From NCBI RefSeq assembly GCF_041154505.1, contig NZ_AP028672.1:1377001-1441000 (forward strand): a stretch of 64,000 nucleotides of DNA. The letters run 5' to 3'. How positions within the stretch are numbered: position 1 is the stretch's first letter; each line of letters opens with the position of its first letter. Below, piece after piece: positions 22,119-62,775 of this stretch. The position numbers were made by a program, and so were the translations under genes. Source of the stretch: Acidovorax sp. A79 (GTDB lineage: Bacteria > Pseudomonadota > Gammaproteobacteria > Burkholderiales > Burkholderiaceae_C). The notes under the pieces were generated by a model. That model was not told the origin of the DNA. It did no database searches and saw nothing but the letters and a program-made list of their open reading frames with translations.

Positions 22119-22137
22119 ACCCGCCGTGGTGGCGGGT
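22119..22137. terminator. Candidate shared hairpin between convergent genes
   Basis: ACCCGCC-N5-GGCGGGT forms a 7-bp GC stem between the cytochrome c gene and the convergent cupredoxin gene, touching the latter's stop codon. There is no T-run, so this is only a possible bidirectional end signal. Confidence 0.35.
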
Positions 22138-22880
22138 CAGCTGCCGGGGTGCAGGTGGGCGCCGCCCGCGGGCGCCTGGCTGTACGAACCCATGGGGCCT
22201 CCCGGGGGCGCGGCGGGCGGGGCGCGGCGCACGCGCGGCACCACGCTGAGCTGCACGGTGTCGAGCACCGGGCCGGGCGCCACGTTCAGGGCCTTGCGCG
22301 GCAGGTCCACCAGCTGCTCCGCATGCCATACGCGGACCTGGGCGGCACCTTCGGGCACGGCGGGAAAGCGGGCAATGCCGTCGCCGTCGGTCTTGAGGGC
22401 CCAGGCCGAATCGGTCACGAACACATGGCCGCGCATGGAGCCGTGCAGATGGCAGCCCAGCAGCACCACGCCGGGCGTGTCGAGCTTCACGTCGGCGAAG
22501 TTGGAGGGCTTGCCATCGGTCTTGCCCGCCAGGCGCAGCTCGAAGCCGGGGTTGGTGCCGCCCGGCGCCGCGGCGGCCGCGACCGTGGCGGGGTTGCCGC
22601 GCACATGGTGGTCCCACCGGTCCTGGTTGGTGAAGCGCACGGTGGTGCCGGGGGCCACCACCGTCAAGGCGGGCACGAAGCGCATCTTCTCCTGTTCGAT
22701 GGTGGGGCTGGCCTGCAGCAGGCTCGGGGGCGTGCCGGCCGTGGCGCCGGGGTACACCACCACCACCGCATCGGGCACGGGCCGGCCCTCGCGGTCCAGC
22801 ACCTGGATTTGAACATTTCCGGCGCTAGCGCTTACCCATAAAGCGCTGATAGCTATCAAAATAATAGTATTTTTCATCAT
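22137..22880 (-). CDS. Secreted cupredoxin-like (plastocyanin-type) copper protein
   Basis: 247 residues: a signal peptide of about 20 residues ending SASA-G, a beta-sandwich with a likely copper site made from the histidines in DRWDHHVRG and from CHLHGSM (Cys, His and Met spaced as in blue copper proteins), then a Pro/Gly-rich tail with HLH. It resembles proteins annotated as methylamine utilisation/plastocyanin. Probable periplasmic electron carrier or copper binder. It is the last gene of the DUF3034-globin-cupredoxin operon, starting 4 bp after the globin stop. The signal-peptide coding sequence coincides with a copy of the dispersed repeat described separately, which is exceptional. Confidence 0.8.
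   Translation of the reverse strand: MMKNTIILIAISALWVSASAGNVQIQVLDREGRPVPDAVVVVYPGATAGTPPSLLQASPTIEQEKMRFVPALTVVAPGTTVRFTNQDRWDHHVRGNPATVAAAAAPGGTNPGFELRLAGKTDGKPSNFADVKLDTPGVVLLGCHLHGSMRGHVFVTDSAWALKTDGDGIARFPAVPEGAAQVRVWHAEQLVDLPRKALNVAPGPVLDTVQLSVVPRVRRAPPAAPPGGPMGSYSQAPAGGAHLHPGS
22822..22880 (-). repeat. Dispersed palindromic repeat, copy A (inside cupredoxin gene start)
   Basis: Read on the minus strand it shows TTGATAGCTATC, then GCGCTT-TATGGGT-AAGCGC, then TAGCGCCGGAAAT. The order and spacing match copies C and D. It begins at the start codon and provides codons about 1-20 of the cupredoxin. Confidence 0.75.
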
Positions 22881-22884
22881 GGCG

Positions 22885-23349
22885 TCAGTGGATGGTGATC
22901 ACGTCCCGGTGCATGGGTGCGAGCAGGGCCAGCAACCGGTTTTGCTGGGCGAAGGGTATGCCCTGGGCATCCATGGCGCTTTGCAGCACCTCCACGAGGG
23001 CATGGAAGTGGCCCTTGTGGATGTCCATGTCGGCATGGGCCGATTTCATGTCAGCGCCTTCATATTTGCAAGGCCCCCCGCTGAGCTGGCAGACCTGGTC
23101 GGTCAGGCTTTCCTTGAGGGCCTGGGGCTTCGCCTCCTTGAAGTGGCCGCCGATGCGCGGGTCTCTCACGACACGGTCCACGAAGTCGTCCATGAGGCGG
23201 GTGATGCCGGGCTTTTCGCCCAGCGCCTGGTACAGGCCCGCGGGCGCCGCCGGGGAGGTGGCCGGGGCAGGCTGCGACAGGGCAGCTGGAGCCCACAGGC
23301 AGGCGGCGGCCAGGGCCAGGGCAGAGAAGGTGTTGCGTTTGATCATCAT
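22885..23349 (-). CDS. Exported group 1 truncated haemoglobin-like protein
   Basis: 154 residues with a signal peptide (about 1-24, cleavage near LSQPA) and a truncated-globin domain (about 35-150): GLYQALGEKPGITRLMDDFV and the segment SAHADMDIHKGHF, which carries the proximal histidine. Export of a small globin is unusual compared with cytosolic members and suggests oxygen, NO or electron chemistry in the periplasm next to the cupredoxin encoded 4 bp downstream. Tandem ATG codons at 23349 and 23346 are both possible starts. The gene lies 19 bp after the DUF3034 gene. Confidence 0.85.
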   Translation of the reverse strand: MMIKRNTFSALALAAACLWAPAALSQPAPATSPAAPAGLYQALGEKPGITRLMDDFVDRVVRDPRIGGHFKEAKPQALKESLTDQVCQLSGGPCKYEGADMKSAHADMDIHKGHFHALVEVLQSAMDAQGIPFAQQNRLLALLAPMHRDVITIH

Positions 23350-23368
23350 GGGGGTCTCCGAAGCGGGC

Positions 23369-24304
23369 TCAGAAAGCGACCTGGGCCGACAGGTAGTAGC
23401 CCGTCTGGCGGCGGTTGTTGGTGATGCCCGGCACGATGCGCCCCAGGTCCACATACGCCAGCGTGAGCGACACGTTCTTGGTGGGTGCCCAGGCGATGAA
23501 GATGTCCTTCCAGTCGTCCTCGCGCAGCGCGGCGCCCAGGCCGGCCGCCGCCCCCAGCGCCTGCAGGTTGTTGGGCTTGAAGCGGTACTCGGCGCCGACC
23601 GCCAGGTTCTTGCTCAGCAGGTAGGCCATCGAGAACTCGGGCTGCAGGCTGCGGCTGTTCCTGCCCGGCGCGGCCGAGCCAAAGCCCAGCAGGCCGTTCT
23701 GGTTGGCATTGGTGTAGCGCAGGGTGCCGTTGACGAGCAGGCTCTGCGCCAGCAGCAGCTTGGTGGCGCTCACATACACATCGGTGCCGCTGGTTCTTGT
23801 ACCGAGGAAGTCGAGCACCGACCGGATGGAGCCCGCGTGCGTCCGCTTGTGCTCCAGGCCCACGGCGATCTGCGGCATGAGGCTGTCGGCATCCAGCACG
23901 GCATCGCCCGCCACCTTCACCTTGATGCCCACCACATCCATCCGGATGTGCTGGCCGGGCGCCACGCCAAAGGGCGCGATGCCGTTGAGCGCCAGCGCAG
24001 GCGAGGCATCAAGATCCTGCCGGGCCAGCGACAGCTCCACCCGGTCGTGCAGGCCCAGCGCCACGCCATAGCCCGTGAGGCCGTAGTCCTGCGTGGCCGC
24101 TCGCGTGGCGTAGCCGCTGAAGCCGGTCTCGCCCGCCGTGGCGTTCGTGCCGATCACGGCCCAGGGCGTGAGCCCGCCGCCGGCCGACCCGCCGATGCTG
24201 CTGACGCCGCCGGTGAGCAGCAGCTTGCCCGTCCCGGCCTGGGCCAGCCCGGCGGCGCCCATCGCCAGTGCCGCGAGCAGCGTGCAGTGAAGCCTGTATT
24301 CCAT
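23369..24304 (-). CDS. DUF3034 family outer-membrane-like protein
   Basis: 311 residues. A signal peptide (about 1-25, cleavage after AQA) is followed by alternating short hydrophobic strands and a C-terminal aromatic residue (ending QVAF), as in outer-membrane beta-barrels. KLLLTGGVSSIGGSAGGGL near the N-terminus and the overall length match what I know as DUF3034, a family of unknown function. It heads the three-gene operon with the globin and cupredoxin and is preceded by a predicted ECF promoter. ATG 24304 is chosen over an in-frame start five codons upstream because it gives a normal signal peptide. Confidence 0.75.
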   Translation of the reverse strand: MEYRLHCTLLAALAMGAAGLAQAGTGKLLLTGGVSSIGGSAGGGLTPWAVIGTNATAGETGFSGYATRAATQDYGLTGYGVALGLHDRVELSLARQDLDASPALALNGIAPFGVAPGQHIRMDVVGIKVKVAGDAVLDADSLMPQIAVGLEHKRTHAGSIRSVLDFLGTRTSGTDVYVSATKLLLAQSLLVNGTLRYTNANQNGLLGFGSAAPGRNSRSLQPEFSMAYLLSKNLAVGAEYRFKPNNLQALGAAAGLGAALREDDWKDIFIAWAPTKNVSLTLAYVDLGRIVPGITNNRRQTGYYLSAQVAF

Positions 24305-24446: not shown

Positions 24447-25238
24447 TTACAGCATGCGCTCGATCAGCGCGCCCTTGAACAGCACCGGCCCGGTAGGTCC
24501 GGTCGCGCTGGGCACGCCACCCTTGGGCTCCAGGCTGATCGCCAGGGCTGGCACCTGCTTCACATCGGCCTCGCCCGCCACCAGGGTGAGCAGCCTGTCC
24601 TGCCCCAGCACCCCCAGCGAACGCGGCCCGCCCGAGGGCGGCAGCGCCCACAGCTGGAGCGACTTGTCGGCCCCTTCCTGGAAGCCGCCCACGCGCTGCA
24701 GCACCAGCTGGTTGTTCCTGGGGTCGAAGGTGACCAGCATCGACGCGGCCTCCTTGTCGTCGGACAGCACGGCCACGTACTGGATCTGCGGCGCGGCCTG
24801 CAGTTGCTGCTGCAGCGTGGCAATCTGCCGGCCCGACGTGGCCTTGAGCGCGCCGTGCACCTGCACGCCGATCGCCACCGCCGCCACGGTGGCCAGCGCG
24901 CCGGCGGCGGCCGCGCCGCGCCACACCAAGAGGCTGTGCCACCAGCCGCCGCCCGGCACCCGGTCCGCGGGCCGATGGGCGGCCTGCAGGGCCCGCGCGG
25001 CCTTGTCCGCCTCGACCAGGTTGTGGATGCGGGTCCAGACATGCGAGGACGGCTCGGCCAGTTCCTGCAGTTCGGTCAGGCCGGACCAGCGGCCTTGCCA
25101 CACCAGCGCGGCAGCCCGCACGGGGGCCTGCTCGCGGGCCAGGGTTTCGAAGCGGCGGCGCGCGCCGCCCCGCAGCGTGCCCAGCGCATAGCTGGCCGCC
25201 AGGCGGTCCAGCAGTTCGGGGTGTCGGGAAAGGTTCAT
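24447..25238 (-). CDS. Anti-sigma factor, RskA type
   Basis: 263 residues: cytoplasmic N-terminal domain (about 1-100) that should hold the sigma factor, a single membrane helix (about 107-127), and a periplasmic RskA-like domain (about 140-263) with LQLWALPPSGGPRSLGVL. The N-terminal domain lacks an obvious zinc-binding His-Cys motif. It would sequester the ECF sigma factor encoded 15 bp upstream until an envelope signal triggers proteolysis. Cotranscription with its sigma factor is the standard arrangement. Confidence 0.9.
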   Translation of the reverse strand: MNLSRHPELLDRLAASYALGTLRGGARRRFETLAREQAPVRAAALVWQGRWSGLTELQELAEPSSHVWTRIHNLVEADKAARALQAAHRPADRVPGGGWWHSLLVWRGAAAAGALATVAAVAIGVQVHGALKATSGRQIATLQQQLQAAPQIQYVAVLSDDKEAASMLVTFDPRNNQLVLQRVGGFQEGADKSLQLWALPPSGGPRSLGVLGQDRLLTLVAGEADVKQVPALAISLEPKGGVPSATGPTGPVLFKGALIERML

Positions 25239-25253
25239 GGGGAGGTTCCTGGC

Positions 25254-25829
25254 TCAGGCATAGCGTGCCATGCAGGCGCGCAGCTGTTCCAGCCCGCGCC
25301 GGATCCAGGTCTTGACGGTGCCCAGCGGCAGCTTGAGCTGCTCGGCCAGCTCGCCGTGGCTCAGGTCGCGCAGGTAGGCCAGGCTCACCACCTCGCGCTG
25401 CCGCGTCTCCAGCTTGCCCAGGCATTGGTGCAACGCGAAGGCCTGCTCGCTCGCCTCGGTGGCGTCCATGGGGTTGGCGCCCTCGCCCGGCAGCGTTTCC
25501 GCCAGGGCATCGTCCAGTTCGTTCATGAGGTCCGCGCGGTCGCTGGTGCGCTTGCGCAGCGCATCGAGCGCGCGGCTGCGCACGATGAGCCCCAGCCACG
25601 CCATGGGCGGGCTGAGCGATGCACGGTAGCTGGCGGCCGACCGCCAGATGGTCAGGAACGACTCCTGCAGCACGTCCTCGGCCGCATCACGGTTGCGCAC
25701 CACGCGCAGCGCCAGGCCAAAAAGCCGCGACGAGGTGCTCTCGTACAGGCTTTTCAGCGCGGTGTCGTCCTGCGCGGCGATGCGGTCGAGGAGGTCCATC
25801 AGTTCACGGTCTGTGTGGAGGGTGCTCAT
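25254..25829 (-). CDS. ECF-type RNA polymerase sigma factor (SigK-like)
   Basis: 191 residues with region 2 (RDAAEDVLQESFLTIWRSA, about 46-64) binding the -10 element and region 4 (LSHGELAEQLKLPLGTVKTW, about 156-175) binding the -35. It belongs with sigma factors paired to RskA anti-sigma factors. The ATG at 25829 is chosen because upstream in-frame sequence holds the predicted promoter, not homology. Autoregulation is likely, since TGAATCC-N16-CGTA precedes both this gene and the DUF3034 operon. Confidence 0.92.
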   Translation of the reverse strand: MSTLHTDRELMDLLDRIAAQDDTALKSLYESTSSRLFGLALRVVRNRDAAEDVLQESFLTIWRSAASYRASLSPPMAWLGLIVRSRALDALRKRTSDRADLMNELDDALAETLPGEGANPMDATEASEQAFALHQCLGKLETRQREVVSLAYLRDLSHGELAEQLKLPLGTVKTWIRRGLEQLRACMARYA

Positions 25830-25888
25830 GCGCCCATTCTCTGGGATTGGTCTCTGTTCACGGTGCAATGGGATCTTCTGTGGGTGAA

Positions 25889-25915
25889 TACGCCACAGCG
25901 GGCGCTTTGGATTCA
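25889..25915 (-). promoter_or_regulatory. Predicted autoregulated ECF promoter of the sigma/anti-sigma operon
   Basis: Minus-strand TGAATCC (25909-25915), 16 bp, then CGTA (25889-25892), about 60 bp before the sigma start codon. Box sequences and spacing are identical to those in front of the DUF3034 operon. Confidence 0.75.
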
Positions 25916-25991
25916 TCGCCCGGCCCGAAGAGTGCAGCGCGCGGCGGCCGCGTTCAAGCCGCCCCGGGCGGCGCTGCTGCGGCTGCGACCG

Positions 25992-34419: not shown

Positions 34420-34487
34420 TCACTAAAAACACCGCCTGGCGCTTATTCCACAAGCGCAATAAGCTATTATTTTCATAGCAAAACATG
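34420..34487 (-). repeat. Dispersed palindromic repeat, copy C (intergenic)
   Basis: On the minus strand: GCTATGAAAATAATAGCTT, then GCGCTT-GTGGAAT-AAGCGC, then AGGCGGTGTTTTT. It lies in the 280-bp gap between the hydroxy-acid dehydrogenase start and the PAS-GGDEF gene end, where it may act as an RNA hairpin. Nothing else recognisable is in that gap. Confidence 0.7.
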
Positions 34488-42700: not shown

Positions 42701-45693
42701 CTGGACTCGCACAGCAGCAGGCCGCGCGCGTCGCTCTTGCCGCTGCACAGCGTGCCCAGGTCTTTCGTTTCGGTCTGGTTGTCATAGCTGTAGAAGCCGC
42801 CCACCATGCGCTTGCGCGTGGTGGTCGTGATGCGCGCGATGGCCTGCACCTGCAGCGAGGTGTCGGCGGCGGGCTTGCCGTCGTGCTGCAGCGCCAGGGC
42901 CTGGTAGCGGATCTTCTGGCGGGCCGAGACCCAGCCCTCGGTCTTCACGCCCGCCACCACGCCGGCGGGCCACAGCGTGTGCGTGCCGCGCAGGGTCTGC
43001 ACCTCGCCGTTGGGGTCGGCATACGTGGCCTCCATCAGCAATTCCTGTGGTTCGCGCGCCTGGGGCACGTTGTCGATGGTCAGCTTGCCCGCCCCGTCCT
43101 TGTTCAGCGTGAGCGGCAGCTTGTCGGCGATCACGCGCGCGTCCTGGCTGGCGGCGGGCTCCTCGTCGTCGCCACCCGCGCTGGAGGCCTGCGCGCGCTT
43201 GCGCGGAGGGTTGAAGCTGAAGGCCTCGTAGTCGGCGTACTGCAGGCTCTTGCCGCGCACCAGGGCGGACACCCGCACCGGCAGATGGGCCGCGCCGCCG
43301 CCCGCCACGTAATTGACCTGCACGTCGGTGGGCACCGAGCGCACGCGCACCAGCGCCTTCTTGTCGGCCGGCGCAATGCGCCCTTCGAGCACCGGCAGGC
43401 GGAATTCCTCCACGCGGAACTCGCCCGAGCTGAAGCTGCGCTCATTGTCGGAATCGCTGCGCAGCTCCACCTGGTACACGCCGAGCTTGGCGGCGGGCGG
43501 CACGGCGAAGCTGCTCTGCGCGCTCAGCCCCCCGGTGGCGGTCGCGCGCCATGCGAGGCTCTGGGTGAATTGCTGGCCGCTGCCCACATGGGTGATGACC
43601 AGGGTCTCGGGCCGCTGCGCGGGCAGCGCGAACCCCTGGCGGGTTTCAGAGCGCAGCACGTGCTTCATCGACACGGTTTCGCCCGCCCGGAACAGGGTGC
43701 GGTCGAAGATGGTGTGGGCCCGCTCGCTGGGGCGCGGGGCGCTGTTCGTGGGCACGTTGAAGCGCCAGGGCTCGATGCCGCGCTGCCAGTCGCTCCAGGT
43801 GAAGGCCATGTCCTCCACGCCGTCGTCGCCCTTGTGGCGCGCACTCACGAAATAGGCCTGGCCGCCATCGCCGCCGTGGTAGGCATCGCCGCAGCGCGGC
43901 GGTTCGGACGACAGGCCCTCGATGTTCGCGACCCCCTGGTCGTTGGTGATGGCCTGCGCCAGCTCGTTGCCCTTGCAGTCGGACACACGCACCGTGGCGC
44001 CCTGCACCGGCTGGCCCTTGTCGAGCGTGGTCACCCAGGCCAGTGCGTTCTCGCGGCCCAGCTTGAAATGCACGCCCAGGTTGGTGACCAGGGCCGAGGT
44101 GCGCACATACATCGTGCGGGCATCGCCATGGCGTTCGTCGAGCAGCGAGGCGCCCAGCTTCTGCGAGGCGATCTCCACCACGTGGAACCCAGGCGTGAGG
44201 GGAATGCCCACCACCTCGAACGGGCGCGGGTCGTTGCCGGAAGGCCTGGGCAGGTCCAGCGTCTTCACCCCGCCCTTGCCCGCCAGCAGCGACAGCATGC
44301 GCGACTGCACGTACTCCTTGTCCTCGTCCAGCGCCTTGGGCAGCGGGCCGCTCACGTCCTGCCGCGCCTGCTTGCGGTTCACCACGTAGTTGTCATAGCG
44401 CTGCACCTTGCGGAACCACGCGATGATGTCCGCATCGGTGCGGGGCTTGAGCGTGCTCACCTTGCCTGCCGGCGCCTCGGCGCCCGGCTGCAGCCCCTGC
44501 ACGCGCAGCGCCGCCTCGACATTGCGCAGCGTCACCGGCAGCAGCGCGGGGGGCTTGTCGGAGCGCGGCCCCTCGGCAAAACGCTCCACGATGCCGAACG
44601 GCGCCGCCGCGAACTTGGCCAGCGGCGGCATGCCGCCCGTGGCCACCTTCAGCGGAAAGCTGTCGGCATTGCGCAGCGGACGGCCCGAGGCGTCCTTGAG
44701 GTCCTTGGGCAGCTCCAGCGTGAACGCCGTGTTCTCGGCCAGGGGCGCGGCGAACTGCACGCTGTTCACCAGCGCATCGCCCGCCTGGCCGTCGCCCGCG
44801 CCTTCCATCCGGGGCTGGAGCGTCTCCTTGGCCGATTTGAGGCGGATGGCCGCTGCAAGCTTGCGCGGCACGGGGGCATTGAAGGACAGCTGCAGCGGAC
44901 GGATGGGCAGGCAGGCCGCCTGCGCGTTCTCCCGCTCACAGCTGAATTCGGCCGAGAAGGGCTCGCGCACCTTGAAGTCAAAGCGTTTTTCCACCGCGTT
45001 GGCCACCCCGCTGGGCGTGGCGACGCCCTTGCCGAACACGACCTGCATGCGCGAACCGGACGTGAACCGCCGGTTGCAGGCCAGCGCGGCGTACTGCAGG
45101 GGCTCCTGCGCGGCGCTTTTCTCCAGGCCCAGCGCCTTCAGGATCTCGGCCCGCTGCGCGCCCTCGATCAACCGGACCGGGATGCGCTCGCCCACGCCTT
45201 CGGCCGTGCACCACACATTGCCCTGCACGCTGGCGGTGGTGGCGGGGCCATTGAGCTGCAGCACGAAGAACTGCTCTTCGTCGATCTCCTGGTAGGGGTT
45301 CGGGCGGATGGCCTGCACGAATGGCCCTCCGCTATTGAATTGATAGCTTTTCGCGCCCGTCAATTCAGCACCAGCGGCCGATTTGAACCCTGCCCTGACG
45401 GTGGCGGTGCAGCGCACCCCCGGCGGCAGGTCGCGCTCGAAGTCGAACACCCACTCGCGCTCTCCCGTCCAGCGGCCCGTGCCCTTGGTGGCCCCGGCAT
45501 CGCTGCAGCTCAGGGCCAGCGGCGCGGGCGCCTTGGGGTCGCCAAAGTTGACGGCAGCGGCATCGAACTTGGCCACCACCTGCCGCACCCGGGCCACTTC
45601 GCCCTGCGGCGAAAAGCTGGTGATCTGCAGGGCCTGCGCCCCCCAGGCCGCCAGCGACAGGCTGGTGGCCAGCATCCATTTCTTTGCGTTCAC
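39703..45693 (-). CDS. yfhM: Bacterial alpha-2-macroglobulin with thioester motif
   Basis: 1996 residues. A signal peptide (about 1-21, ending AQA-LQ) is followed by MG domains, a bait region and the thioester domain with CLEQ (C1500), the CxEQ motif that covalently traps attacking proteases. Pairing with pbpC is the known arrangement for the YfhM branch, believed to protect the periplasm when the wall is breached. Unlike E. coli YfhM, no lipobox cysteine follows the signal peptide, so this protein is probably soluble in the periplasm. Start: GTG at 45693, preceded by GGAGGGGACAGC, a strong ribosome site. Residues about 104-121 are encoded by a copy of the dispersed repeat. Confidence 0.93.
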   Translation of the reverse strand: MNAKKWMLATSLSLAAWGAQALQITSFSPQGEVARVRQVVAKFDAAAVNFGDPKAPAPLALSCSDAGATKGTGRWTGEREWVFDFERDLPPGVRCTATVRAGFKSAAGAELTGAKSYQFNSGGPFVQAIRPNPYQEIDEEQFFVLQLNGPATTASVQGNVWCTAEGVGERIPVRLIEGAQRAEILKALGLEKSAAQEPLQYAALACNRRFTSGSRMQVVFGKGVATPSGVANAVEKRFDFKVREPFSAEFSCERENAQAACLPIRPLQLSFNAPVPRKLAAAIRLKSAKETLQPRMEGAGDGQAGDALVNSVQFAAPLAENTAFTLELPKDLKDASGRPLRNADSFPLKVATGGMPPLAKFAAAPFGIVERFAEGPRSDKPPALLPVTLRNVEAALRVQGLQPGAEAPAGKVSTLKPRTDADIIAWFRKVQRYDNYVVNRKQARQDVSGPLPKALDEDKEYVQSRMLSLLAGKGGVKTLDLPRPSGNDPRPFEVVGIPLTPGFHVVEIASQKLGASLLDERHGDARTMYVRTSALVTNLGVHFKLGRENALAWVTTLDKGQPVQGATVRVSDCKGNELAQAITNDQGVANIEGLSSEPPRCGDAYHGGDGGQAYFVSARHKGDDGVEDMAFTWSDWQRGIEPWRFNVPTNSAPRPSERAHTIFDRTLFRAGETVSMKHVLRSETRQGFALPAQRPETLVITHVGSGQQFTQSLAWRATATGGLSAQSSFAVPPAAKLGVYQVELRSDSDNERSFSSGEFRVEEFRLPVLEGRIAPADKKALVRVRSVPTDVQVNYVAGGGAAHLPVRVSALVRGKSLQYADYEAFSFNPPRKRAQASSAGGDDEEPAASQDARVIADKLPLTLNKDGAGKLTIDNVPQAREPQELLMEATYADPNGEVQTLRGTHTLWPAGVVAGVKTEGWVSARQKIRYQALALQHDGKPAADTSLQVQAIARITTTTRKRMVGGFYSYDNQTETKDLGTLCSGKSDARGLLLCESRLDEPGEVELVVTATDRDGNTSVAASSVWVTRQGELWFGGEDHDRIDLLPEKKSYQPGETAKFQVRMPFRFATALVAVEREGVIDTQVVQLNGQDPTVSLKVQPDWGPNVYVSVLALRGRLREVPWYSFFTWGFKAPREWWTSFWYEGKEYQAPTALVDLSKPAFRLGLAEIRVGTQAHQISVKVAADKESYAVRGKAQVTITATLPGGKPAANAEVAVAAVDQALLELMPNNSWNLLEAMLQRRSWGVETSTAQMEIIGRRHYGKKAVPAGGGGGRAQTRELLDTLLLWEPALQLDANGQAKVTVPLNDALTTFKIVAVADASTGLFGTGSTSIRATQDLQIISGLPPLVREDDQFRAQITLRNTTKAAMRVEVAPRATLLELKPQTVDIPAGESREVAWNVTAPAQLAQTRSESILWEIEAKDTVSGARDALKARQRIIPAVPLTVQQATLVQVDGSFSLDVNPPADALPGRGGLKMSLQPKLAEGLPGVRDWWARYPFACLEQKTSKAVGLRDGALWQTVVAQLPTYLDSDGLANYFPPRDGDANRGSDTLTAYVLAATHEAASLNPAFALPDEARAPMERGLIAFVEGRIQRSFWSPRKDLDMRKVAALEALSRYGKAQGRMVGSITIAPNQWPTHTVIDWVNVLKRVADVPERDKRLAEALQILRSRLSFQGTKLIFSTEQDDYWWWLMQNGDVNTARLMLAVMDDPAWKDDMGRLANGFISRQQAGAWHTTTANLWGGLALEKFSAKFEAVPVSGTTKATMSGSSATVDWSKVERVKASDATGAAHQTTWFGAPASPGNLKNNDMFLAWGKAGGKESLAVAHQGPGKPWLTLQSVAAIQLKAPFAAGYAIKKTVTPVEQANKSLPAGQYTRGDVLRVTLEVNASADMTWVAITDPVPGGATILGSGLGRDSAIATQGEKAKSGAGWPAFEERSFEAFRSYYEYLPKGTVKMEYTVRLNNVGDFALPPSRVEAMYAPEMFGELPNARVKVEAAR
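45331..45384 (+). repeat. Dispersed palindromic repeat, copy G (within alpha-2-macroglobulin gene)
   Basis: Plus strand GCTATTGAATTGATAGC followed by TTTTCGCGCCCG and CAGCACCAGCGGCC. The first 29 bases match copy D (56291-56319, opposite strand) at all but a few positions. It is in frame with the gene on the minus strand. Confidence 0.6.
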
Positions 45694-48721: not shown

Positions 48722-48780
48722 AAGCTACAAAAACAATAGCCGCCAGCGCTTGATTGACAAGCGCTGGCGGCTATTTCATT
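48722..48780 (+). repeat. Dispersed palindromic repeat, copy B, acting as likely terminator
   Basis: Contains 18-bp perfectly complementary arms (48735-48752 and 48758-48775, with GCCGCCAGCGCTTG pairing to CAAGCGCTGGCGGC) around a 5-base loop ATTGA. Its position just after the katE operon and before the convergent Bug gene fits a bidirectional transcription end. It is the most symmetric copy of the family. Confidence 0.8.
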
Positions 48781-56267: not shown

Positions 56268-56326
56268 AAATTGCCCTAGGGCTTATCCATAAAGCGCCAA
56301 AAGCTATCAATTTAATAGCTTTTGTG
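56253..56326 (-). repeat. Dispersed palindromic repeat, copy D (at the end of an IPTL-CTERM gene)
   Basis: Minus strand: GCTATTAAATTGATAGCTT, then GCGCTTTATGGATAAGCCC and TAGGGC. It begins within the last codons of the IPTL-CTERM gene, where TTTTTATG-CATAAAAA (56255-56270) is a perfect palindrome spanning the stop codon. It can serve as that gene's terminator. The rest of the 137-bp gap is unremarkable. Confidence 0.75.
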
Positions 56327-61132: not shown

Positions 61133-62749
61133 ATGCTGTTCACACCCGCTTACACCGCGCCGGCCCTGGCGGTCGCCCTGCTCCTACCCGCTGCTGCATC
61201 GGCCGCCACGTTCACGGTGAACGACACAGGCGACGCCCCCTTGAGCGTCTCCGTGCCCTGCAACGGCGGGATCACCCCCTGCACGCTGCGCGCCGCCATC
61301 GAGGCGGCCAACAACAATCCCGCATCGGCCGACACCATCAATTTCAACTTCTCGAGCGGCTCCGTCACCATCGAGCCCCAAAGCCCGCTGCCCGCCATCG
61401 CCGGCGTGACCACCATCGACGGCTACGCCCTCGGCGCAGGCATCCCCAACACCTTGCCCGTGGGCAATGACGCCTACATCAGCACCCGCATCGACGGTGC
61501 CAACGCGGGCGCGGGCACGCACGGCCTGCGGTTCGTGCCGGGCGCATCCGGCTCGGTGCTGCGCGGGCTCGCCATCACCGGTTTCGGGGGCCACGGCGTC
61601 GTGCTGGACGGGCAAGGCTCCGCGAACGGCTTGGTGGGCGTGGCCATCGCGGGCAACTTCATCGGCACCAATGGCAGCGGCACGGGCGGCGACCAGACCG
61701 GCGCGCTGGTCAACCTGTTCTCGGGCATCTATATCGACAACAGCGCCAGCAACACCACGGTGGGTGGCGCCAACCCGGCCGACCGCAACCTCATCGTGGC
61801 CAGCAGCAGCGGGCGGGCCGTTTCGCTGGGCGCTTCTCCAGGCACGCTGGTGCAGGGCAACTACATCGGCACGAACCGCGCGGGCACGGCACGCGTCAGC
61901 ACTCATACGGGCATTGCCGTGGCCAGCCCCCAAGGCGCCGGCAGCATGGTGCGCGGCAACGTGATCGGCGCCGCCGACACGGGGGTGATCCTCCATGGCG
62001 GCGCCCGCAATGCAACGCTGCAGGGCAACGCCATCGGCGTGGGCGCCGACGGCACGGCCAGCGTGGCGGGCAGCGGCAACGGCGTGTACATCACCGACGG
62101 CGGACTGCCCCTCAGCCCGTGGTTCATCCACATCGGCGGCACCGACCCCGGCGAGGGCAACACCGTCGGCCATTGGGGGGGCAACGGCATCCGCGTGGAG
62201 CACAGCTCCGCGCCCGCTCCCGCCCTGCGCTACCACAGCTTCACGAACAACAGCATCCACGGCAACGCGGGCCGGGGCATCGCGCTGGTGGACACCGCCG
62301 GCAGCGACCCGGCCACGGTGAACAGCGGCCAGCCCGCACCCGCCATCACCGGCGCCACCAGCACGGTGGTGAATTTCAGCTTCAGCAGCGTGGCAAACAC
62401 CACGCAGCGCTTCGAGGTGTTTGGCAATACCAGTTGCGGCACGCCGCAAGGGCGCGTCTTCCTCGGTTCGCTGCAAACGGGCACCGACGGCAGCGGCCAG
62501 GTGAACGGCAGCATCAATCTGCCGCCCCAGCCCGCAGGCACCTACCTGAGCATGACCGCGACGCGCTATTTCAGCGGCGGCGGCGGCAACAACCAGGAAA
62601 CCTCGGAGTTTTCGGCCTGCGCGCAAGTGCCGGGCGGCCCCGCGGGCAACCCCAGCGCCATTCCGACACTGGGCCACGCGGCACTGGCGCTGCTCGCGGC
62701 CCTGCTGGCGAGCCTGGGTGCTCTTAAAAAGAGAGCTGCTCGCGCTTGA
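61133..62749 (+). CDS. IPTL-CTERM surface protein with CSLREA-like start and beta-helix
   Basis: 538 residues. Signal peptide about 1-23 (PAAASAATF). The start of the mature part, TFTVNDTGDAPLSVSV followed by CTLRAAIEAANN, is the CSLREA-type domain. A parallel beta-helix (about 90-390) with rungs such as GLRFVPGASGSVLRGLAI and GNFIGTNGSGTGGD follows, then a beta-sandwich segment with FEVFGNTSC, and the sorting signal IPTLGHAALALLAALLA plus a basic tail KKRAARA. The last residues and the stop codon are encoded within copy E of the dispersed repeat, which also supplies the upstream part of the next gene. Surface adhesin-like role is inferred. Confidence 0.85.
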   Translation: MLFTPAYTAPALAVALLLPAAASAATFTVNDTGDAPLSVSVPCNGGITPCTLRAAIEAANNNPASADTINFNFSSGSVTIEPQSPLPAIAGVTTIDGYALGAGIPNTLPVGNDAYISTRIDGANAGAGTHGLRFVPGASGSVLRGLAITGFGGHGVVLDGQGSANGLVGVAIAGNFIGTNGSGTGGDQTGALVNLFSGIYIDNSASNTTVGGANPADRNLIVASSSGRAVSLGASPGTLVQGNYIGTNRAGTARVSTHTGIAVASPQGAGSMVRGNVIGAADTGVILHGGARNATLQGNAIGVGADGTASVAGSGNGVYITDGGLPLSPWFIHIGGTDPGEGNTVGHWGGNGIRVEHSSAPAPALRYHSFTNNSIHGNAGRGIALVDTAGSDPATVNSGQPAPAITGATSTVVNFSFSSVANTTQRFEVFGNTSCGTPQGRVFLGSLQTGTDGSGQVNGSINLPPQPAGTYLSMTATRYFSGGGGNNQETSEFSACAQVPGGPAGNPSAIPTLGHAALALLAALLASLGALKKRAARA

Positions 62750-62775
62750 TGTGCGGGCGCTAGAGGCCAAAATGA
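62724..62775 (+). repeat. Dispersed palindromic repeat, copy E (spanning two gene ends)
   Basis: AGCTGCTCGCGCTTGATG, then GGGCGCTAGAGGCC and AAAATGATC. It encodes the basic C-terminal tail and stop of the IPTL-CTERM protein at 61133-62749 and the leader and first codon of the gene at 62772. Confidence 0.7.

Follow-up and report, generated by a model that had tools for sequence, protein, structure and literature searches.

How does a copy of a repeat that occurs hundreds of times between genes come to encode the predicted signal peptide of a conserved protein? The question is raised by Acidovorax sp. A79 (genome G000), in a 64,000-nucleotide stretch of contig NZ_AP028672.1 (positions 1,377,001 to 1,441,000; hereafter the window), where a gene for a cupredoxin-like, predicted exported protein of 247 aa (22137..22880, minus strand, from the list of open reading frames, ORFs) begins in a copy of a REP-like element. 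The gene opens with the DNA ATGATGAAAAATACTATT... and its protein with MMKNTIILIAISALWVSASAGNVQIQ. A profile of the repeat family places the copy on the minus strand (envelope 22818..22870, alignment 22869-22821, 45.6 bits, E 2.9e-13), where it writes codons 4/5-20. These codons specify the hydrophobic core of the predicted signal peptide together with its S-A-S-A end. The original prediction, which read codons 1-20 straight from the repeat, is therefore borne out by the profile match for codons 4/5-20 but not for the very start: both ATGs and the first lysine codon (Met-Met-Lys, ATGATGAAA, 22872..22880, minus strand) come from the flank, outside the repeat. The Sec-type features of the peptide (lysine, hydrophobic core, S-A-S-A end) were judged by eye, with the same reservation for the lysine codon. 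The second ATG (22877-22875) matches the single ATG of most relatives. The copy includes the core palindrome AGCGCTT-N7-AAGCGCT, a hairpin identified by pattern search and a fold of the sense strand (22827..22847, i.e. G000:C1:1399827-1399847), and the AT-rich left arm of the element (22848..22869, minus strand; TACTATTATTTTGATAGCTATC in the sense direction). Third-position GC in this gene is 0.38 in the signal versus 0.93 in the body.

The element is a hairpin-forming sequence of about 55 bp with an AT-rich arm. Its profile (55 positions) was built from 121 intergenic copies, 46% GC over all of them, taken from an even sample of this one genome (80 stretches of 20 kb, 1.6 Mb, all outside the window). 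The whole genome holds about 500 copies: a directional pattern allowing up to two mismatches had 256+251 = 507 matches, against 0+0 in the reversed control, and the palindrome AGCGCTTN{3,12}AAGCGCT was found at 90 places, against one. The profile scan of the 1.6 Mb returned 145 distinct copies (207 raw matches) and none in the reversed sequence. With genes called by a simple codon-score method, 72 of these copies lie between tandem, 38 between convergent and 7 between divergent genes, 23 are centred within a called gene and five fall at stretch edges. Convergent and divergent spacers of at least 60 bp are equal in total length (58.0 versus 58.6 kb), yet the copies number 38 and 7, respectively, and 49 of the 72 copies in tandem spacers are closer to the upstream stop. 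The convergent excess and the nearness to upstream stops thus put the element mainly at gene 3' ends. An Rfam scan of the window at gathering cut-offs gave no matches, and the element is not among the 20 largest direct or 25 longest inverted repeat families listed for the window. The nearest named relative is Acidovorax sp. sif1233 (100% identity). Within the genus, the 47 genomes scanned have from 2 to 709 matches to the pattern, and six of them, with eight matches or fewer, are repeat-poor (G030, 2; G004, 4; G031, 4; G063, 4; G069, 5; G001, 8). In a sample of 150 genomes of the family, 71 had at least one match, and high counts were scattered over genera.

Several other genes begin in the repeat. 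In the 1.6-Mb sample, the called genes that start in it encode SCO1/SenC, a DsbD, a TPM-domain protein and an ABC ATPase. The SCO1/SenC N-terminus (MLKRSALKTIAFAALSISAAGIFSAC), which is of the lipoprotein type, and that of DsbD (MPQRLLHRLAVTLLFIAASALWTSASAQ) are read in the same sense frame as the cupredoxin, and that of the TPM-domain protein (MPLALIHKALIAIFFIAFALPWARAD) in an antisense frame of the element. These three proteins look exported. The ABC ATPase (L148:226-1041, plus strand; MNSVAISACQISASIGNRL), whose first ~15 residues also come from a repeat copy, is not of an exported type; its best NCBIfam matches, below the cut-off, are heme and corrinoid ATPases.

The match in these genes goes beyond what their peptides require. 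We compared each of the four signal-bearing genes of G000 with 3000 synonymous recodings drawn from the gene's own codon usage. The real score against the best recoding was 45.7 versus 18.8 bits for the cupredoxin, 33.0 versus 15.0 for SCO1, 46.3 versus 20.3 for DsbD and 43.4 versus 26.0 for the TPM-domain protein. As none of the 3000 recodings reached the real score in any of the four, the match is not dictated by the peptide alone and chance is excluded. With 20 recodings of every scored row, 10 bits was reached by 2/1200 for the cupredoxin, 2/1520 for SCO1 and 31/840 for DsbD.

The intergenic copies themselves indicate why the same element might serve more than one gene. The cupredoxin frame (consensus NTIILIAASALWTSA) is open in 70 of the 121 copies, strongly hydrophobic in 41 and then followed by an A-x-A-type motif in 21; the antisense frame used by the TPM-domain protein is open in 74 copies, and 19 copies are hydrophobic in it. 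The remaining four frames are hydrophobic in 0, 1, 1 and 1 copies. Having two hydrophobic frames, the element can therefore give rise to signal peptides repeatedly, and both frames are in use; that unrelated genes use both strands argues for the direction from repeat to gene. A repeat copy within a long called gene elsewhere in the genome (L123:14546-16399, minus strand) also reads as a hydrophobic, transmembrane-like segment (IAIVLVAASAYQSSDRGRF) in the cupredoxin frame.

Orthologues were scored in the signal region against the element profile, with a threshold of at least 10 bits. Repeat DNA in the same frame was found at 24 of 27 cupredoxin loci of the genus (that of the window included); in a second set of named cupredoxin loci, whose species overlap with the first, 22 of the 33 scored (34 found) reached the threshold. 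Loci scoring zero were L021/L094 (G008), L022/L096 (G004), L023/L099 (G031), L097 and L100, as well as Delftia L103 and five Curvibacter loci. The counts for the other three genes include G000 itself. For SCO1, 41 of the 46 loci scored in the genus reached the threshold (the misses being G004, G031, G063, G069 and, at 9.0 bits, G029). For DsbD, with a match in 44 of 47 genomes, 38 of the 42 scored did so, and the four misses were G004, G031, G063 and G069. On the opposite strand, the TPM-domain gene, with a match in 37 of 47 genomes, had 27 of 31 scored loci at 10 bits, a threshold lax for this frame, and 20 of 31 above 26.0 bits, the best recoding; it was missed in G004, G063, G069 and at L350 of G065 (7.6 bits). 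Outside the genus, SCO1 was read in 30 hand-picked genomes (22 with more than 20 copies, eight with nine or fewer; L305 left out), of which 16 reached 10 bits. Rows without a score were L102, L226 and L246 and, in the TPM set, L341, L346, L352, L357, L358 and L359. One repeat family thus lies at the start of four protein families, in two frames, and is conserved there across most of the genus. The suggestion in the original prediction that an amplified intergenic element had been co-opted is supported by the match at the DNA level, the frame kept in the same-genus loci and the three further families.

The conservation extends to silent sites. We followed A/T-ending codons in divergent pairs of repeat-rich orthologues, pairs that are not independent of one another. 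Inside the repeat, 77-80% of such codons were kept identical (cupredoxin 1120/1448, SCO1 5348/6729, DsbD 1804/2241), versus 16-26% in the gene bodies (390/1519, 1348/8179 and 570/2400, respectively) and 44-75% at other 5' codons (184/244, from two codons only, 1418/3203 and 204/366). From this retention of A/T-ending codons, the repeat DNA itself may be constrained in these genes. Codon identity at identical residues was similar in repeat and body (0.74 vs 0.70, 0.63 vs 0.64, 0.75 vs 0.69); this measure is hard to read because codon bias in the body inflates identity, and the A/T-ending test was used instead. A GC3 comparison over 1069 called genes was set aside as biased, since the gene caller cuts off AT-rich starts. 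The score of the SCO1 signal rises with genomic copy number (rho 0.82 over 63 genomes, uncorrected for relatedness; 63 of 76 rows, 13 near-copies having been dropped and the score of L226 set to 0). In the coding rows the hairpin register is held at a mean of 5.4-5.7 of seven pairs, versus 1.8-3.3 when slid, and at least six of seven pairs are present in 30 of 58 cupredoxin, 47 of 72 SCO1 and 34 of 42 DsbD rows. Related species share off-consensus variants, namely GCAATATC..TATGCGC in the SCO1 genes of L178, L182, L186 and L187 and GCGCAATATTCAC in the cupredoxin genes of L005, L010 and L014, so descent looks vertical.

In the repeat-poor clade the signal sites carry GC-rich DNA, and the peptides are either recoded or different. 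The original prediction had proposed that orthologues lacking the repeat might have another signal peptide and that a shared one would point to chance similarity. The comparison came out mixed: the TPM signal does differ (MPHA...WR...) in the three repeat-poor genomes read, but SCO1 keeps a partly similar peptide in GC-rich codons, and the cupredoxin, whose DNA is different, perhaps does so as well. Repeat-poor DsbD keeps a short AT-rich stretch, which scores 6.5 bits at L244 (0/3000 recodings as high); the real score was reached by 4/3000 recodings at L245 and by 14/3000 at L241, and L243 gave no score. We take the similar peptides in GC-rich codons to result from co-option followed by decay at silent sites, rather than from chance, because no recoding reaches the real score in the four genes of G000.

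We put at roughly 80% the probability that a hairpin-forming REP-like element was co-opted as signal peptides and that the co-opted copies were then inherited vertically under selection. In such a history an element of ~55 bp would have multiplied in many Acidovorax, and in some other Comamonadaceae, until hundreds of copies were present. Most of these lie at the 3' ends of genes, but several genes also have one at their 5' end. Behind an ATG-Lys, its stop-free hydrophobic frame with an A-x-A-like end would make a ready-made Sec or lipoprotein signal, and it may long ago have been put to this use in the cupredoxin-like protein, SCO1/SenC and DsbD and, through its antisense frame, in the TPM-domain protein. 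From then on the gene copies would have passed down by vertical inheritance. Selection for the peptide would have preserved them, apparently aided by nucleotide-level constraint where the lineage is repeat-rich. Where the intergenic family was presumably lost, as in one clade, GC-rich codons would have accumulated at silent sites or another signal would have taken over. A bolder version, which we find conceivable but would not bet on, is that the element is functional as nucleic acid in repeat-rich Comamonadaceae and serves as a portable signal peptide besides. Its co-opted copies would then be dual-coded, under selection as protein and, while the cell retains the machinery that sustains the repeats, as DNA or RNA too; with that machinery gone, the intergenic copies would disappear and the gene copies would hold on to the peptide alone, in recoded form.

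Other histories would leave some of the same traces. The similarity might be a by-product of the common composition of signal peptides (hydrophobic, Ala/Ser-rich, with an AT-rich 5' end) rather than of descent from the repeat; 5' codons outside the repeat do keep A/T endings above the level of the bodies, and some recodings do reach 10-26 bits (DsbD 31/840, TPM 616/3000). This explanation is hardly credible. It is already contradicted by the recoding test, in which 0/3000 recodings equalled the real DNA for any of the four genes of G000, by a match that continues through silent sites and the palindrome and by the hairpin register, where pairing drops when it is slid. Alternatively, the repeat family could have been born from a signal-peptide segment of a gene and spread from there, since one frame of its consensus spells a signal peptide and Delihas weighed such an origin for parts of RU-1 and RU-2 (PMC2759123). 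This direction strikes us as improbable: 51 of the 121 intergenic copies do not keep the cupredoxin frame open, the conserved core is the palindrome, and a single source gene does not explain four unrelated genes, one of them on the other strand.

If, instead, ongoing gene conversion kept overwriting the gene copies with sequence from the hundreds of intergenic ones, the correlation of the SCO1 score with copy number (rho 0.82) and the repeat-like silent sites would follow; however, related species share gene-copy variants that deviate from the core of the family, GCAATATC..TATGCGC and GCGCAATATTCAC, as predicted by vertical descent, and the cupredoxin gene of G008 has escaped, which makes this rather unlikely. 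An action mainly at the RNA level, with the hairpin near the start affecting translation or mRNA decay and the signal reading secondary, would agree with the silent-site conservation and with the rows that keep at least six hairpin pairs. It too is unlikely, if a little less so, given that the repeat-poor clade lacks the repeat DNA but still has a similar peptide or a different signal-like N-terminus, and that in DsbD and SCO1 the element sits where a signal is expected.

Co-option followed by vertical inheritance has its own difficulties. We infer the insertion that would have started it, rather than reading it from an empty site. Part of the codon effect is general, because other 5' codons also exceed the bodies, and in the cupredoxin they reach 75% vs 77% inside the repeat. 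Compensatory change in the hairpin is slight, the correlation with copy number ignores relatedness, and the profile was derived from one genome. The threshold of 10 bits is lax for the TPM frame, where 616 of 3000 recodings reach it, and also for DsbD (31/840). In the repeat-poor genomes, SCO1 retains a KRNALKxIAxGA-like peptide in GC-rich codons, which could be ancestral, and the trees, of low resolution, place that clade without support. Repeat-rich G008 (L021/L094) has a GC-rich cupredoxin signal with a nearly usual peptide (IAASAVGASASAG), whereas repeat-poor G199, of another genus and with five two-mismatch matches, keeps repeat DNA at its cupredoxin gene (G199:C14:57385-57413, 27 bits, 0/3000 recodings as high), that copy being itself one of the five. 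Among the other genera, 7 of the 21 scored repeat-rich genomes have an SCO1 signal below 10 bits, and two of the eight with nine copies or fewer have one above.

A repeat-derived signal peptide is a known kind of event. In Yersinia, RU-2 (RU-2/YPAL) is reported to contribute a portion of the signal peptide predicted for YPO1552 (Delihas 2007, PMC2759123; PMC2229807), and similar proteins of other genera are described as carrying signals unrelated to the repeat (PMC2759123). RU-2 differs in being 168 bp long and in having a single main locus, which is conserved in both Y. pestis and Y. pseudotuberculosis (PMC2759123; PMC2229807), whereas the Acidovorax element, of ~55 bp, is found in four protein families across the genus, with SCO1 and one cupredoxin beyond it. 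The Rickettsia palindromic elements (RPE) are likewise palindromic repeats that conserved proteins contain as in-frame segments; they are reported as inserts in 19 reading frames, neutral or slightly harmful in gmk (PMC2229807), unlike the Acidovorax element, which supplies a targeting-like N-terminal segment. A repeat named BRE has been reported in Comamonadaceae, including Acidovorax, with some copies overlapping or inside ORFs. BRE is ~90 bp long and 69% GC in Bordetella with at most 29 copies per genome (PMC3110155), which sets it apart from an element of ~55 bp, 46% GC and ~500 copies. In a literature search by sequence and keyword that covered few subscription papers, neither this element family nor the repeated co-option of a repeat as signal peptide was found described.

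There is also a likeness to the REP elements that go with RAYT transposases (PMC2817692), which have hundreds of short palindromic, mostly intergenic copies; those of Acidovorax are biased to gene 3' ends. The element is a high-copy, short palindromic, extragenic repeat, as REP elements are. A RAYT (Y1_Tnp) mobilizer is unsupported, there being no clear copy near the sole Y1_Tnp-domain gene of G000 (L238:6814-7596, plus strand, by domain match) and no link with copy number. In the 15 kb around that gene the only profile match has 7.7 bits and lies ~5 kb away. A Y1_Tnp match is present in 44 of the 47 genomes of the genus, including all six repeat-poor ones, and three repeat-rich genomes are without; many of the proteins are of a ~240-aa kind. 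In G070 there are 37 such matches, the majority belonging to a single 153-aa type, versus 1-3 in the other genomes with a match, presumably an IS200/IS605-like burst.

The sequences suggest that repetitive DNA has repeatedly been turned into a useful protein part, here the predicted export tags of at least four unrelated proteins. This would be a strong bacterial case of high-copy repeat DNA giving several conserved proteins their targeting-type sequence. Its recurrence has a simple explanation, since the repeat already reads like a signal in one of its frames. The genus and its relatives offer dozens of natural replicates, repeat-rich and repeat-poor, in which to study the route from repeat to coding sequence and to ask whether constraint at the nucleotide level goes along with the function of the protein.

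The cupredoxin-like protein has no Pfam model above cut-off (CarboxypepD_reg and DUF4198 match only below theirs), no NCBIfam match and no sequence relative in the PDB; its name rests on the motifs GCHLHGSM and DHH, which by eye resemble a copper site. Immediately upstream, an ORF with a Bac_globin domain (22885..23454, minus strand) has its stop a few bases before the cupredoxin start. Beside this globin/cupredoxin/DUF3034 cluster, genes with an anti-sigma domain (RskA_C) and a sigma-70 region (24447-25916, minus strand) are a likely regulator pair. Further copies of the element in the window, all from the profile, lie at 34435..34480 (minus strand, 37.9 bits), 45331..45383 (plus, 29.8 bits), 48724..48776 (plus, 43.9 bits) and 56274..56319 (minus, 35.0 bits). 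Directly after another copy, at 62719..62770 (plus strand, 33.5 bits), comes the in-frame start codon of a signal-peptide-like ORF (MIKKILLPALLCASAAQAAT...).
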